A stretch of 64,000 bases of DNA from an uncultured Planctomycetaceae bacterium. Its GTDB lineage: Bacteria; Planctomycetota; Planctomycetia; Planctomycetales; Planctomycetaceae. Under the pieces are notes generated by a model that saw only the letters and a program-made list of their open reading frames with translations, did no database searches and had not been told where the DNA came from. This document shows, in pieces, positions 1 to 59,652 of the stretch. Made by a program: the position numbers and the translations under genes. The stretch is taken from assembly GCA_937916515.1 (NCBI GenBank), contig CALFSX010000277.1, positions 1-64,000 on the forward strand, in the 5' to 3' direction. Position 1 is the first letter of the stretch. Every line of letters starts with the position of its first letter.

Positions 1-164
1 GTGGGATGCGGAACAACGTGGGACGTTCGAATCGCCGAACCGCTCCGTTGTCGCTGCGAACAAGGGCGATGCCCTTGACCCGGTGGCGTGGGATGCGGAA
101 CAACGTGGGACGTTCGAATCGCCGAACCGCTCCGTTGTCGCTACGAACAAGGGCGAAGCCCTTG
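1..164 (+). repeat. Family-1 repeat, tandem pair of 87-bp short units
   Basis: Two copies of an 87-bp unit start at 1 and 88 and differ at only a few bases. Each has the family core (TCGAATCGCCGA, then CTCCGTTGTCGCT) and the AAGGGC..GCCCTT palindrome. Compared with the copies at 5400, 8876, 10065 and 59517, this subtype lacks the tail of about 45 bases between the core and the next palindrome. The array is cut by the left window edge and may continue beyond it. It overlaps the 3' end of the minus-strand amidohydrolase gene. Confidence 0.9.
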
Positions 165-1406
165 TGAGGGCACACTGGAAATTTCAGCCAAAGGCGACAG
201 CAGGGTGGCGTTCAATTGGCTGAAAGAATCGCATTTGCAGGCAATGGTTGTGCCAGCAAGCGGAAGGCCGGTTTGGATGCGGCAGGTGTCTGCTGGAAAG
301 CCCAATGCGTTGGCGGCAGTTGTGGTGATCAACGGCAGCAATTCCCATATGGGTGGCACGCTTGGTTGTCGGCAAATGAATTGCAGTTCTTTCCAGATGC
401 TTAGATCCGGATTCGACGCTTTGCTGTCAGTCCCCAGGACAACGGTGGCTCCCGCATTCATGAGTTTTCGCCAAGGGTGTGGCGAGTGGCCAAAATAGGC
501 GTGAGTGCGAGGACAGTACACGACGGCGACGTTCGGGTGTTTTGCTGCGAAAGCAATTTCGGCGTCACTTAAATAGTTGCAATGAACGGCCAGAGATTTT
601 TTGGCTTGAGCCAGTTTTTGAAGGTACGGCAACACAGACGTCATGCGGCCCAGCGTATCGTCGGCCCACAAATTCATTGATGTCAGAAATTCGAAAAAGC
701 GTCCAGTGCGATCGGACAGTAATTCCACTTCGTCAAGTGTTTCTGCCAAATGCATGGCCACGGGGATCTCATGTTTTATTGCGAGGTCAACAACGGATTC
801 AAACAATTCCGGATGCACACTGTAGGGGGCGTGAGGACTCAGGCCGGAGCAAACCCGGTTGGTTGTGGCTTTGGCAGAGATTGCCACGGACGCTTCGGCG
901 ATGGCCAGTTGCGCGTCGATTGCGTCTTGTCGAAAGCCAATGAGTTCTCGGAAACTGACTGCTGCTGTCAGGTGCCCGTCTGCCGTAGCTGCTTCGATTG
1001 CCTGACGGCCTTCGTTCGATGTTGTGATTTCGCCAGCCAATGCCACGGATTCACGTCGGCATTCTACGACTCCCGTTTGGATGGCGCTGCTGACAAATCC
1101 GCTTTCGGGGTGAGCCATTCGATAACGGATGACCGACCGAATCCAGTCTGGAAACGGATTCGCAGGTGCGATGGGTTCGTCCAGCTTTGAAAATTCCAGG
1201 TGAGTGTGTGCATTGACGAATCGTGGAAGCAATGCCAACGGTTGAATTAACGATCGTTCGTCCGGTGGGACGTCGCCAATTTCGGCGATCGTTCCGTTCA
1301 GCACAGCGATTCGAACGTTGGGCACAGGTTGTTCGCCGGGGGTAATTAGCCACGCAAAGCGATAAACATCTGTGACGGAATTTGCGATGCTGATATGTTC
1401 GGACAC
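141..1406 (-). CDS. Amidohydrolase family metal-dependent deaminase/chlorohydrolase-like protein
   Basis: A 421-residue protein of the cytosine/adenosine-deaminase branch of the amidohydrolase superfamily (MtaD/SsnA/TrzN-like), cytoplasmic. The metal-binding HxH is seen in NAHTHLEF (H67, H69). Further ligand or catalytic motifs follow in order: SPHAPYSVH, AMHLAETLDE, AVHCNYLSD and VLGTDSKAS. The substrate cannot be read from sequence; an aminated nucleoside or purine-like compound (for example the futalosine route) is possible. The start at 1406 gives a normal N-terminal beta domain. The last eight or so residues (SQGLRPCS) and the TAG stop are encoded by the family-1 repeat at 1-164, so the native end was probably replaced. 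No operon partner is obvious; the next gene downstream lies outside the window. Confidence 0.85.
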   Translation of the reverse strand: MSEHISIANSVTDVYRFAWLITPGEQPVPNVRIAVLNGTIAEIGDVPPDERSLIQPLALLPRFVNAHTHLEFSKLDEPIAPANPFPDWIRSVIRYRMAHPESGFVSSAIQTGVVECRRESVALAGEITTSNEGRQAIEAATADGHLTAAVSFRELIGFRQDAIDAQLAIAEASVAISAKATTNRVCSGLSPHAPYSVHPELFESVVDLAIKHEIPVAMHLAETLDEVELLSDRTGRFFEFLTSMNLWADDTLGRMTSVLPYLQKLAQAKKSLAVHCNYLSDAEIAFAAKHPNVAVVYCPRTHAYFGHSPHPWRKLMNAGATVVLGTDSKASNPDLSIWKELQFICRQPSVPPIWELLPLITTTAANALGFPADTCRIQTGLPLAGTTIACKCDSFSQLNATLLSPLAEISSVPSQGLRPCS

Positions 1407-1474: not shown

Positions 1475-1590
1475 CTAACTGGACAACGCCAAGTCTGAGT
1501 GAGCCGCAGGGCGTTAGCCCCGGTTTTATTCGCAATCCGCACTAACCGGGGCTAACGCCCTGCGGCTGATAGGGGTAGCAGAAACACTGA
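1475..1590. repeat. Family-2 repeat with 23-bp perfect hairpin (copy a)
   Basis: The unit begins CTAACTGGACAACG. It holds a perfect inverted repeat with arms at 1503-1525 and 1544-1566 (GCCGCAGGGCGTTAGCCCCG.. and its complement) and an 18-base loop. A second copy lies at 9008-9122. It lies between the 5' end of the amidohydrolase gene and the 3' end of the ABC ATPase gene, so it could end the ABC transcript. It has no clear U-tract, so that role is inferred. Confidence 0.85.
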
Positions 1591-5394: not shown

Positions 5395-5537
5395 GACACC
5401 TAACAAGGGCTTCGCCCTTGCCCCAGTGGCGTGGTTGGCTGGAAGACATGGAAGGCTCGAATCGCCGAGCCGCGACGTTGTCGCTACGACCAACATGCGC
5501 GCACCGTGCGTACATCATTTCAAGTAAGACACCTAAC
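5395..5537 (+). repeat. Family-1 dispersed repeat, full copy with 10-bp flanking direct repeat
   Basis: A full unit: it starts in CTAAC at 5400, has the palindrome AAGGGCTTCGCCCTT, the core CTCGAATCGCCGAGCC..GTTGTCGCTACGA, a tail with the hairpin-prone GCGCGCACCGTGCG, and ends in CTAAC at 5533. The identical ten bases GACACCTAAC occur at 5395-5404 and 5528-5537. The period between the CTAAC ends is 133 bp. It lies just before the histidine kinase start. Confidence 0.9.
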
Positions 5538-5553
5538 GTCAGCAGCTTACAAC

Positions 5554-6915
5554 GTGACAGAGACTTCCGAAGATCAGAATGTTACGTCGCCCGACGCGAT
5601 TGTAGACCCGTTTGCTCGTGAGCTTCGTGCTGAATCAATCACGGTCCGCATTCGTTGGTTTGGCCTGGCTGTTGGCTACCTGCTGGTCAACGTGGGAGAC
5701 CTGATTAACGCTGCCGATCGAGGTTCTGAAAAGCTGGAACTGAACGCGATTCTGGCAGTGGGGGCCGTCTATGCAATGATTGATACTGTTCGCAGCAGGA
5801 AAGGAAAAGTGCTGCTGGCAGAATTTCGGATCATCATCAGCTTGATGGAAGCTTTGTTTATTGGGCTGCTTTGCTATTTCGATGCCGGTATCAGCAGTCC
5901 GTTTCGGTTCTACTATTTTCTGTCACTGCTGGTGTGTGCGATTCGGCATACACCGATGCTGACTTTCGCTACGTTTGGTCTGCACGCATTAAGCTACAGC
6001 ATTCTTGGCTTAATGTCCGGGCCTACTCGGCCTGGCGACGGCATTCAGATGATTCTGACGCTGGTTTTTCTTGGCTGGGCCGCGTGGGCAATTATCGCGT
6101 TAACGGGACTTCTGAAAACGGCAGGCAATCGCTTAAAACAGCTGAACAGCGAACTGCTTGATAACCAGGTTCATCTGGAAGGTCGGATTAAAGAACGAAC
6201 AAGAGACCTGCAGGAGTCTCAGGCGCTGCTGGTGCAGCAGGAAAAGCAGGCGGCCTTCGGATTATTGGCAGCCGGTATTGCTCATGAAGTTGGCAATCCT
6301 CTGGCTTCGATCAGTTCGATTGTGCAGCTGCTTGCGCGGCGAACAACAGATGACTACACCGTCGAACGTTTGACCATGGTTCAGGGCCAGCTGGCTCGGA
6401 TTCAACGAACATTGCAGGAACTGGTTGGCTTCAGTCGGCCTGCCAGCCAGCAGGCGATTCTTGTGGACGTGCACGCTGCCATCAACGATGCTCTGAACAT
6501 TGCCAAGTACTACAAACGATGGAAAGGCAAACGGGTCAATACGGAATTCGACCCGGACATCAAGGCGATCAGAACCATCTATGATCAGCTTGTGCAGGTC
6601 ATTCTGAATCTGGTGCTGAATGCACTGGACGCCACCGAAGAGGGAGCCGCCATTAACGTGACCACAAATGTTATTGAAGAAGATGGCGAACAAAAAATTG
6701 CCATTCATATTGCCGACGAAGGCCACGGCATTGCCGTTGAAGATCAGGAACAAATCTTCGAACCGTATTTTACCACCAAAGTTACCGGTACAGGACTGGG
6801 TTTGTTTGTTTGTCGCCAACTGGTGCAACAGGAACTGAAGGGCGATATTACTCTTGTGGAATCGAATGCAGCAGGCACAGAATTTTGCATCGCGATTCCA
6901 TCCATCAAGCCCTGA
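5554..6915 (+). CDS. Membrane-bound sensor histidine kinase
   Basis: An inner-membrane histidine kinase of 454 residues. An N-terminal bundle of about five to six membrane helices (for example residues ~30-50, ~95-140 and ~165-185) is followed by a coiled-coil linker (RTRDLQESQALLVQQEKQ). The HisKA box has phospho-acceptor His244 in AHEVGNPLASIS, and the HATPase domain shows N box NLVLNALDA, G1 DEGHGIA, F box FEPYFTTK and G2 GTGLGLF. The longest frame opens at 5431 inside the repeat, but the first 41 codons would be repeat sequence. GTG at 5554, just past the repeat, is the better start, though no strong ribosome site is visible. No response regulator is adjacent, so it is an orphan kinase whose partner is unknown. 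Confidence 0.88.
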   Translation: MTETSEDQNVTSPDAIVDPFARELRAESITVRIRWFGLAVGYLLVNVGDLINAADRGSEKLELNAILAVGAVYAMIDTVRSRKGKVLLAEFRIIISLMEALFIGLLCYFDAGISSPFRFYYFLSLLVCAIRHTPMLTFATFGLHALSYSILGLMSGPTRPGDGIQMILTLVFLGWAAWAIIALTGLLKTAGNRLKQLNSELLDNQVHLEGRIKERTRDLQESQALLVQQEKQAAFGLLAAGIAHEVGNPLASISSIVQLLARRTTDDYTVERLTMVQGQLARIQRTLQELVGFSRPASQQAILVDVHAAINDALNIAKYYKRWKGKRVNTEFDPDIKAIRTIYDQLVQVILNLVLNALDATEEGAAINVTTNVIEEDGEQKIAIHIADEGHGIAVEDQEQIFEPYFTTKVTGTGLGLFVCRQLVQQELKGDITLVESNAAGTEFCIAIPSIKP

Positions 6916-7476: not shown

Positions 7477-7604
7477 AGCGGTATCGCAAGTTGATCGATG
7501 GTTTTATTCGTGATCGACTGTTCAGTGTGTGACCACAACATGAATTGCAAACTGCCGTTCTTAAAGTACATATCCGCCCAATAGAATTCCGGAGTTCCAT
7601 TGCC

Positions 7605-8879
7605 ATGAAGATCGCCGTTATTACGGCAGGCGGAGCGGGCATGTTTTGCGGCTCCTGCATGCAGGACAATACGTTGGTGAGGACTCTGCGTCTGGCCGGA
7701 ACTGATGCCGTTCTTGTGCCGACTTATACGCCGATTCGTGTTGACGAAGAAAACGTAAGCGGCGAACGCGTTTTTCTAGGCGGAATCAACGTTTATCTGG
7801 ATTCAACATTGCCGGGCTGGAGAAAGCTTCCTGGTTGGATGATTCACTGGTTGAATCGTCCCAGCATCATCAAAACGCTTTCAAAGCTTGGCAGCACCGA
7901 CGCAGCGAAACTGGGCTCGCTGACTCTGGACATGCTGAAGGGGGCATCCGGGCCACAGCAACGTGAAGTGCAGGAATTTGTAGACTACCTTTGCAACGAC
8001 CTGAAACCGGATGTTGTGGTGTTCAGCAATGCTTTGCTGTCGGGCGTTCTAAGTGAGCTGCGGCCTCGGTTTGGCGGACGCATTCTTTGTCTTCTTCAAG
8101 GAGACGACATTTTTCTGGAAGGCTTAAAGCCTCGCTGGAAGAAGCCGGTGATGGAACAGCTTGAGCAAAACTGCGACATGTTCGACGGCTTCCTGACTCA
8201 TAGCCGCTTCTATCGCGATTTTATGGCGGGTTACCTGAACATTAAAACAGACCGCTTTCGGCAGATACCACTAACGATCGATTCTGATGACTTCGACCTG
8301 ATCCGTTTGCAGCCGTCGAAAACAGAGCGAGACAGATTTCGCATCGGCTATTTTGCTCGCATCTGTCCCGAGAAAGGTGTTCACAATCTTCTGCATGCCG
8401 CTGAGTCTGTGCTTTCAACTTATACAAACGCTGATGTGGCGATTGCCGGATATCTGGGCAAAGAAAACGAAAAGTGGTTTCAACGGATTTTGAAGAATTC
8501 GACAGGCCGATTTCCCGGGCGGATTCATTGGCTGGGAAGCCCGGCCACGCGGCAGGAAAAATTTCAGATCATTCAGGATTTCGATCTGCTGTGCGTGCCC
8601 ACGAATTATCACGAACCGAAGGGGCTTTATGTACTGGAAGCCGGACTGGCCAACGTGCCATCTCTGCTTCCAGATCACGGCGCGTTCCCGGAATTGGTGC
8701 AGACCCTCGGGTTCGGTTCGTTGTACAAAGCCGGGGATCAAAATTCCCTGGTCGAACAACTTAGCAAGTTAGTCGGGCAGAAAGTGGATTCTGGTTTGGG
8801 CCATTCCGAACGAGTGACGGCGACTTCAAGTATGGCGGCAACTGCGGAATCATTGCGGGCTGCAATTTGTTCGTTCTAA
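7605..8879 (+). CDS. Glycosyltransferase family 4 protein
   Basis: A 424-residue GT-B glycosyltransferase. The N-terminal Rossmann half starts MKIAVITAGGAGMFCGS. The C-terminal GT1-type domain carries RIGYFARICPEKGVHNLL and the donor-site segment CVPTNYHEPKGLYVLEAGLANVPS, with the E-x7-E spacing of GT4 enzymes. It probably transfers a sugar from a nucleotide-sugar to a surface glycan or lipid; donor and acceptor are unknown. The frame is open from 7545, but ATG 7605 begins at the conserved first strand. The TAA stop at 8877-8879 is the first part of the CTAAC end of a family-1 repeat, so the last residues were possibly altered by the insertion. Confidence 0.9.
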   Translation: MKIAVITAGGAGMFCGSCMQDNTLVRTLRLAGTDAVLVPTYTPIRVDEENVSGERVFLGGINVYLDSTLPGWRKLPGWMIHWLNRPSIIKTLSKLGSTDAAKLGSLTLDMLKGASGPQQREVQEFVDYLCNDLKPDVVVFSNALLSGVLSELRPRFGGRILCLLQGDDIFLEGLKPRWKKPVMEQLEQNCDMFDGFLTHSRFYRDFMAGYLNIKTDRFRQIPLTIDSDDFDLIRLQPSKTERDRFRIGYFARICPEKGVHNLLHAAESVLSTYTNADVAIAGYLGKENEKWFQRILKNSTGRFPGRIHWLGSPATRQEKFQIIQDFDLLCVPTNYHEPKGLYVLEAGLANVPSLLPDHGAFPELVQTLGFGSLYKAGDQNSLVEQLSKLVGQKVDSGLGHSERVTATSSMAATAESLRAAICSF

Positions 8880-9012
8880 CAAGGGCTTCGCCCTTGACCC
8901 AGTGGCGTGGCACGCAGGAAGACACGGAACGCTCGAATCGCCGAGTCGCTCCGTTGTCGCTACGACAAACATTCGCGCACCGTACGCCCATCACTTTTAG
9001 TAAAACGCTAAC
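8876..9012 (+). repeat. Family-1 dispersed repeat, full copy
   Basis: CTAAC at 8876-8880 to CTAAC at 9008-9012, period 132 bp. It holds AAGGGCTTCGCCCTTG, the core GCTCGAATCGCCGAGTCGC..GTTGTCGCTACGA and a tail with GCGCACCGTACGC. Its first CTAAC contains the glycosyltransferase stop codon, and its last CTAAC is shared with the start of a family-2 repeat. Confidence 0.9.
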
Positions 9013-9122
9013 TGGACAGCGGCAAGTCTCTATGAGCCGCAAGGCGTTAGCCTCGGTTTTTTCCCTGATTGGCAGGAACCGGGGCTAACGCCCTGCGGCT
9101 GATGTGGATCAACGAAAACTGA
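9008..9122. repeat. Family-2 repeat with 23-bp hairpin (copy b)
   Basis: The unit begins CTAACTGGACAGCG. The arms are 9036-9058 and 9077-9099, with two mismatches and an 18-base loop, the same loop length as copy a at 1475. It lies downstream of the glycosyltransferase and could fold into a very stable RNA hairpin, possibly terminating or protecting the transcript. Confidence 0.85.
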
Positions 9123-9249
9123 GTTTCAGTGAGACGCTAACGAGGCTGTGTCTCAGACCATTCGGGCTGTCGCTCGGAAACGCTCCGCCCGACAGTTGCT
9201 GTTGGTCGCCGATCGATGTTTTGACGGTCGCACGTTTGCGAGCGATTTT

Positions 9250-9348: not shown

Positions 9349-9987
9349 GGGAACTCCGTCTGCACGATGTTTTCAAAGTTGAAAAGAGGATCTTCACACA
9401 AAAACACGCTGCACTGTCTTTGGTCATTTAGCGGCTGGCATTCAGCACCATGCAAAATGCGTTCCGCAGCTAAAAACGCGGCGTGTTTTGATCGGTTATT
9501 CATGTGCCTGGTCAAAATTGCAACATTTCTGATCAAACACCCGGCAATCATGGCTTCATCATTTGCGAATCAAGTTTCTTTCGTTTCACAGTCCATCAGC
9601 GGTTTTAAAGGTTTGAACTGTCAAATTGCATGAAGTCGCACGCCGTTTGCTGTTTGCTGGCGGGATTGTTCAGTATTGAGCATGTGTTTGAGCCGATTGG
9701 TCGTCCCACCCCCTGATTCTTCGCCCGAAAATCCTCAGAAACGTTGCCTGTTCACATTCGAAACGACGAAAACGGGGCGTTTTGAAAATTCGATCCAGAC
9801 TGCATTTGTCCCCAGCGTAAGCTATCGAAGTTAAAATGCTGTGAATCTGCAGTTAAGTCTTGAATGAGAACTGTGGCCATTGTTTTGGACTGCGTATGCA
9901 GTTCTGTGTGCTGCATTCGTCAAACGCACCGTTTGTGTAAAGTCCTGCTTCAAATGCTGGACGGACGGTTGGTGTACAATTTCATTT
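9349..9987. other. Gene-poor intergenic region
   Basis: Apart from the start of the microprotein at its left edge, I see no supported gene here. Open frames at 9367-9633 and on the other strand lack ribosome sites and protein-like composition. A diverged remnant of family-1 sequence begins near 9988. Confidence 0.5.
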
Positions 9988-10199
9988 CGTAGCGACAACG
10001 GAGCGGTTTGGCGATTCGAGTGGTCCACGTCTTTTTGCGTGCCACGCCACTGGGGCACGGCCTCGTTAGAGTCTTATTTAAAATGATGCGTGCATGGTGC
10101 GCATGTTGATCGTAGCGACAACGGAGCGTCTCGGCGATTCGAGCGTTCCACGTCTTCCTGCGTGCCACGCCACTGGGTCAAGGGCGAAGCCCTTGTTAG
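9988..10199 (-). repeat. Family-1 dispersed repeats, tandem pair in reverse orientation
   Basis: Two units read on the minus strand. The complete one lies between GTTAG at 10195-10199 and GTTAG at 10065-10069 (130 bp). The second, 9988-10069, keeps the core but has lost its tail, and its palindrome has decayed (GGCACGGCCTC instead of AAGGGCGAAGCCC). The units share one CTAAC boundary. The pair ends directly before the flippase-like gene. Confidence 0.88.
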
Positions 10200-11307: not shown

Positions 11308-11327
11308 CCGGTGACTGTCGTCACCGG
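11308..11327. other. Short hairpin after the flippase-like gene
   Basis: CCGGTGAC, a four-base loop, and GTCACCGG lie between two convergent genes, about 80 bp after the flippase stop. There is no T-tract on either side. It may act as a 3' stabiliser or weak terminator. The sequence TGTCACCGGCAG-like recurs at about 11402. Confidence 0.4.
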
Positions 11328-11458
11328 CAGAGTGCTCTCGTCCCTTCAGGACTGAAACACAGGATGCTGTTCAGATACAGGACGCTGCTTAAATGCTGGG
11401 TGTCACCGGCAGGCAGGCTAAACTGAGGGTGCCGAACACCGTGATCCGAAATGTGCAG

Positions 11459-59516: not shown

Positions 59517-59652
59517 CTAACAAGGGCTGCGCCCTTGACCTGATGGCGTGGTTGGCTGCAAGACATGGGACGTCGGAATCGCCGAGCCGCTCCGTTGTCG
59601 CTACGACCAACATGCACGCACCGTGCACGCATCATTTTGAGGAAAACTCTTA
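59517..59652 (+). repeat. Family-1 dispersed repeat, full copy
   Basis: CTAAC at 59517-59521, palindrome AAGGGCTGCGCCCTT, the core GGAATCGCCGAGCCGC..GTTGTCGCTACGA, tail hairpin GCACG-CAC-CGTGC, and end near CTCTTAAG. The end boundary has decayed from CTAAC. It lies about 160 bp before the LolA-like gene. Confidence 0.88.

Follow-up and report, generated by a model that had tools for sequence, protein, structure and literature searches.

Small mobile repeats with a CTAA target rule and a gene-end address in a Fuerstiella-type planctomycete

The 8.3-Mb genome of a Fuerstiella-type planctomycete carries, next to a related family with a unit B of ~103 bp, a family of small mobile repeats with a unit A of ~131 bp, which follows a CTAA target rule and has the ends of genes as its address. 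The family is real and apparently new, as it was absent from the literature searched. The prediction that the repeats represent a non-autonomous mobile element was supported by sharp ends, unrelated flanks, a patchy distribution and an empty site inside another repeat family.

The copies in the window, by which we mean the whole analyzed stretch of 64,000 nucleotides, are listed in Table 1. The core CGTTGTCGCTACGA was found at positions 46, 133, 5476, 8952, 9987 (minus strand), 10110 (minus strand) and 59593, where 0.52 occurrences would be expected by chance in the window, and the head CTAACAAGGGCNNNGCCCTT (0.09 expected) was present at all places where the original prediction had located a copy. 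Full units of ~131 bp with sharp ends are indeed present at four of these places, namely 5400, 8876, 10199 (minus strand) and 59517. The two copies proposed at 1-87 and 88-164 did not hold up as units running from CTAAC to CTAAC: they lack a tail, are preceded by CGAAC and end in an inverted head that carries CTCAC. These fragments start at the first base of the contig (C277) and are cut by its end. Only one of the two proposed tandem pairs, the one at 9938-10195, shares a CTAA(C), by which the chimeric unit is chained to the right end of its neighbor. In the unit at 59521..59652 the right hairpin (ATGCACGCACCGTGCACGCAT) shows a symmetric, compensating change. Two mechanically called ORFs of the window (88-498 and 5431-6915) pass through A units. 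A units are open in two of the three sense frames, and the repeat may lengthen gene calls in its neighborhood. A stretch at 11308-11353 matched the Acido-Lenti-1 RNA family with 33.3 bits, just below the gathering score of 37 bits.

Table 1. Repeat units and associated features in the 64-kb window.
Feature	Position	Strand	Remarks
Tandem tailless A fragments (two; head and middle)	1..169	+	inverted head at end
Uninterrupted D repeat	1507..1590	+	serves as empty site to compare with A copy L172:1238
Target CTAA of index copy	5400..5403	+	YCTAA is the left-flank consensus (92 full copies)
Full A unit, index copy (starts with C)	5404..5536	+	sequence, profile and consensus fold
Left hairpin of index copy	5405-5419	+	
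Core of index copy	5476-5489	+	
Right hairpin of index copy	about 5496-5516	+	
Own CTAA of index copy	5533-5536	+	
Target CTAA of 8876 copy	8876..8879	+	
TAA stop of glycosyltransferase-like ORF 7545-8879	8877-8879	+	inside target CTAA 8876..8879
Full A unit	8880..9011	+	own CTAA 9008-9011; D repeat directly after
Partial B-like unit, C-GAGGCTGTGTCTCAGACC	9141..9190	+	preceded by CTAA 9137-9140
Chimeric unit (B-type head GAGGCC, A-type middle)	9938..10065	-	
Full A unit	10066..10195	-	target CTAA 10196-10199 (minus), own CTAA 10066-10069
Target CTAA of copy 59521	59517..59520	+	
Full A unit	59521..59652	+	right end decayed to CTTA

Seven copies had been predicted, which is far too low as a count for the genome. 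The head AAGGGCNNNGCCCTTGNCC has 315 matches genome-wide and its reversed control has none. All results other than head counts come from 1.13 Mb of sequence retrieved around copies, a scope that biases estimates of density and affects the comparison of site classes less. A profile built from 26 seeds was searched over this sequence. In this way, 152 A copies were recovered, 98 of which are full length at 131 bp, and the collection and mapping of ends that had been proposed as a check thus yielded 98 full copies with common sharp ends in unrelated flanks. Within the same 1.13 Mb, profile matches with a left end relate to exact heads as 144 to 105, and scaling by this ratio suggests a genome total of around 400 A copies. 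In these draft genomes, the first position of the window and many contig ends of a related genome (G012) fall inside A units. Because contigs end inside units, the copy numbers are lower bounds. Identity to the consensus ranges over 63-98% among full A copies, with a median of 86%, and the closest pair is 97% identical, which indicates that the family spread over a long time.

Matches to A were obtained in 4 of the 58 genomes compared, which comprised Fuerstiella and other Planctomycetaceae metagenome-assembled genomes. Besides the genome itself these are two of the same genus, with one or two copies (G004 and G005), and G012 of another genus, which has 49 A heads and units that are 73-82% identical to the consensus and display the same anatomy. 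A single head match in a sample of 392 genomes of the phylum (G223) was dismissed as chance, as nothing matches beyond the head.

The A unit reads C-AAGGGC(TTC)GCCCTT...GACTCTAA, with sharp ends and a hairpin near either end. More explicitly, the left part of the consensus is YCTAA, followed after the junction by C AAGGGC TTC GCCCTT G ACCCAGTGGCGTGG, and the right part is GGAACGCTCGAATCGCCGAGCCGCTCC GTTGTCGCTACGAC CAAC ATGCGCGCA CCG TGCGCGCAT CATTTTGAGTAAGACT CTAA, followed by any base. The unit thus sits 3' of a target (Y)CTAA, and the fixed first C, which is followed by a perfect hairpin, belongs to the element. In 92 full copies the left-flank consensus is YCTAA. Sequence is random on the left before the Y, and on the right from the first base past the CTAA onward, this base being A in 19, G in 12, C in 16 and T in 15 cases (n=62). 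Since the A unit ends in a CTAA of its own, behind which further units are found, units chain. The B unit (CTAA, then C GAGGC TGT GCCTC AGACCATT ... GCTTTAAGAAGT CTAA; 103 bp, ending in GTCTAA) has the same junction. Its head occurs 82 times in the genome, B directly follows A in 21 of the 92 full A copies, and some A heads carry a B tail. Both units have subterminal hairpins at both ends and fold strongly as single-stranded DNA (z-scores of -3.7 for A and -2.6 for B).

Evidence for insertion is provided by another repeat of the same genome. The D repeats, located in the window at 1479-1617 and 9012-9136 (partial) and also in L141, L119, L172 and L176, have inverted ends (CTGGACAGCG...CGCTGTCCAG) that adjoin TTAG or CTAA, and a long internal palindrome (AGCCGCAGGGCGTTAGCCCCGGTT...AACCGGGGCTAACGCCCTGCGGCT). 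They were considered as a third family ending in CTAA and rejected as such, being inverted-repeat elements. An A copy at L172:1238 interrupts one of them. When its flanks are joined, 84 of 84 bases align to uninterrupted D repeats with no gap at the junction, the identity being 91.7% to the D repeat of L141 and 85.7% to that at 1507-1590 of the window. The empty site reads ..CACTAACCGGGG.. and the filled one ..CACTAA[C AAGGGC ... GACT CTAA]CCGGGG.. A further D repeat, in L160, is broken up by a pair of A units, in this case at another of its CTAA sites. The A copies in D repeats are therefore insertions, and each adds exactly the unit and one CTAA. A comparison of orthologs at the 8876 site revealed no A unit in 31 loci, with flanks too diverged for an empty site to be defined at base level; the length of the gene is similar in the nearest loci.

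The observation that one CTAA is present in the empty site and two in the filled one bears on the nature of the repeat's ends. The question had been raised whether CTAAC is a target duplication. The target is CTAA, and the final C is part of the element and not of the target. A ten-base direct repeat (GACACCTAAC, at 5395-5404 and 5528-5537) does surround the index copy, as had been pointed out, and it is neither a family feature nor a target duplication. A ten-base duplication was rejected because the repeat is peculiar to this copy; in 77 of the 82 non-tandem full copies, the left flank and the right end match exactly over at most 4 bases. With respect to the four bases of CTAA, 99 realigned copies were divided by age into thirds. 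The left CTAA is conserved at 0.92, 0.84 and 0.76 and thereby decays in parallel with the rest of the unit (0.94, 0.86 and 0.76), from which it follows that practically every target was CTAA, or that this CTAA is carried along by the unit. We considered departures at the left end as variation of the target and rejected this, as they are accounted for by decay of a strict CTAA. In well-preserved copies the right CTAA varies more (0.84), and it lacks an age trend. The match between left and right stops at CTAA and extends no further. The first base of CTAA is significantly correlated between left and right, a result that rests on few copies and partly on tandem arrays. Considering that many left CTAAs are stop codons of the host, we favor the reading in which the target is the left CTAA and the element itself ends in the right one, and the first-base correlation together with the invariance of the target makes a 4-bp duplication of CTAA possible.

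Such a duplication would be expected if the units were conventional cut-and-paste (DDE) MITEs with an obligatory CTAA target that they duplicate on insertion. The presence of CTAA at both ends of the filled site and once in the empty site agrees with this, and the D repeats, with their CTGGACAGCG inverted ends next to TTAG or CTAA, look like elements of that kind. However, A and B lack terminal inverted repeats (the left end aligned locally to the reverse-complemented right end scored 4.0, compared to a mean of 3.8 after shuffling), departures in the left CTAA were repeated on the right in only 2 of 8 cases in the best-preserved third, and the greater variability of the right CTAA in the best-preserved copies is not what a duplicated target would give. 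We consider a DDE origin unlikely.

The association with gene ends became apparent when the junctions were compared with mechanically called ORFs of at least 100 codons. In 35 of 138 copies the left junction lies exactly on an in-frame stop, compared to 11 ORFs that continue into the unit in one of the two remaining frames; with a minimum of 80 codons the former number is 37. As random insertion at the ends of coding sequences would reverse this proportion, the stops at the junctions are most likely the genes' own. Occupancy tells the same: 52% of the YCTAA sites at stops are occupied (15/29), compared to 11% of the other intergenic YCTAA sites (27/252; p = 7e-7, odds ratio 8.9) and 2% of the sites in coding sequence. 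Occupancy drops with distance past the stop, the difference between the stop itself and the first 1-60 nt past it being borderline (p = 0.08 for YCTAA and 0.03 for NCTAA). The same pattern was observed in G012 for 6 of 18 copies, three of which lie on a TGA within CTGA. Selection for harmless sites and true targeting of gene ends could each explain the excess.

The excess at stop codons, together with the stable hairpins, might also be taken to indicate that the unit is a functional 3'-UTR or regulatory RNA element that is selected at gene ends and is not a selfish mobile repeat. This appears most improbable given that copies decay to 63% identity with the consensus, that many are not located behind a gene, and that no unit matched an Rfam covariance model up to E = 1. 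In addition, of 39 copies up to 10 have single pairs of the right hairpin broken, and compensating changes are few. The structure thus shows little covariation, as would be expected of copies that simply decay.

With respect to the enzyme that moves the units, the genome encodes six Y1 transposases. None of these six Y1 genes has A or B ends next to it, although the draft is fragmented and a partner may be missing from it. Y1 loci sampled from another 16 genomes likewise lacked A and B ends, and a search for TnpB gave no match. A search for Y2 transposases gave no match and was uninformative, as the control genomes were silent too. Two of the six genes are class-3-like by motif and are flanked by other palindromes. 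One of these (L036:1220-1915, contig C184) is flanked by the palindrome that is also found inside D repeats, which suggests a REPtron-like link between this TnpA_Y1 and D; at the other (L033:1-860, contig C107) the flanking palindromes belong to a different family (CCCGACGCTAGCGCG...). An intact IS200-type TnpA gene (L031:1200-2330, contig C216) is located between sufB-like and sufD-like genes and surrounded by CCACCGGCTTCAGCCGGTGG palindromes. Transposition on single strands is expected to leave a bias in orientation against GC skew. We found 85 of 144 copies on the C-rich strand, a weak bias (p = 0.04), and no bias among the best-preserved copies.

The resemblance to REP-type elements that had been proposed was not supported. 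The high copy number, the palindromic head, the extragenic location and the occurrence of RAYT-like and class-3-like Y1 genes that have their own palindromes would be in line with a REP or REPIN mobilized by a RAYT (TnpA_REP). REP/REPIN systems, including the class-3 TnpA_Y1 repeats of Planctomycetes, are indeed high-copy palindromes, found in the same phylum, whose hairpins have a short motif at the foot (PMC3733652, PMC6006769, PMC8266576). Nevertheless, a REP is a palindrome of 20-60 nt with GTAG or CGTC at its foot, whereas A is several times that size at 131 bp, has two unlike subterminal hairpins in a direct and not an inverse layout, and has CTAA instead of GTAG, CGTC or CnGA. Moreover, none of the six Y1 genes is associated with its ends, which makes a REP or REPIN a decidedly unlikely identity for the unit.

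Similar considerations apply to integrons, in which case the units would be attC-like sites without genes, moved on folded single strands by an integron-type tyrosine recombinase. Integron attC sites fold, are of comparable length and often lie at stop codons, as A units do; the left junction YCTAA|C conforms to the attC exchange point YYYAA|C, and integron-integrase-like genes are present on contigs C142 (L260) and C43 (L261). In contrast to attC sites with their inverse cores (RYYYAAC ... GTTRRRY), A units lack the inverse core GTTRRRY at the other end, where CTAA stands in direct orientation. The base to the right of the unit shows no preference for C, which disfavors an exchange at AA|C, and no cassette array was found at the integrase-like gene on C142. 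An integron-type origin is therefore very unlikely. Thus REP, DDE-type MITE and attC each fail a defining feature that was tested.

On anatomy, the best fit to A and B is provided by the PATEs, the palindrome-associated transposable elements of Haloquadratum walsbyi, which are related to IS605-type transposons (PMC3119063). Like A and B these are short, lack a transposase gene and terminal inverted repeats, have palindromes near their ends, combine a short terminal/target oligonucleotide with the lack of a clear target duplication, and occur in many copies and in clusters (PMC3119063). The units described here differ in being bacterial, in their CTAA target, their excess at stop codons and their chaining via a CTAA of their own, and no IS605-type parent with these ends was found among the Y1 loci searched. 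The BOX elements of Streptococcus pneumoniae are likewise modular small repeats enriched at gene ends with an unknown mover, and many of them supply a gene with its stop codon or overlap it (PMC3049150). A and B differ from BOX in sequence and modules, in that the stop codon is the target itself, and in having ends that are sharp at CTAA.

Based on the above, and with little better than even confidence, we propose that A and B are related non-autonomous elements that are moved in trans in an IS200/IS605-like manner. As no mover was found, the mechanism rests on anatomy. An IS200/IS605-like (Y1 HUH) enzyme would mobilize the elements in the form of folded single strands and would join the 5' end of the element to a CTAA of the host. 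The CTAA at the 3' end would be the element's own and would then serve as the landing place for further units. The pile-up at gene ends might result from the fact that the CTAA there contains the gene's own TAA, so that insertion is nearly harmless, or gene ends might be preferred targets. A more far-reaching possibility, to which we assign only a small chance, is that the family actively targets stop codons or gene 3' ends via the TAA of YCTAA, with its own CTAA as the next site, and depends on a mover outside the known Y1, DDE and integron-type recombinases.

If the proposed reading is true, the haloarchaeal PATEs would have a counterpart in bacteria, and one that renews its own landing site. 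Of the eligible YCTAA stop codons in the regions read, about half are occupied by a copy. Hundreds of insertions would thus be tolerated at little damage, dozens of genes would gain structured 3' tails, and the breaking of draft genomes at the units would be explained. Once a mover has been identified, the CTAA target rule is simple enough for testing in a laboratory strain.
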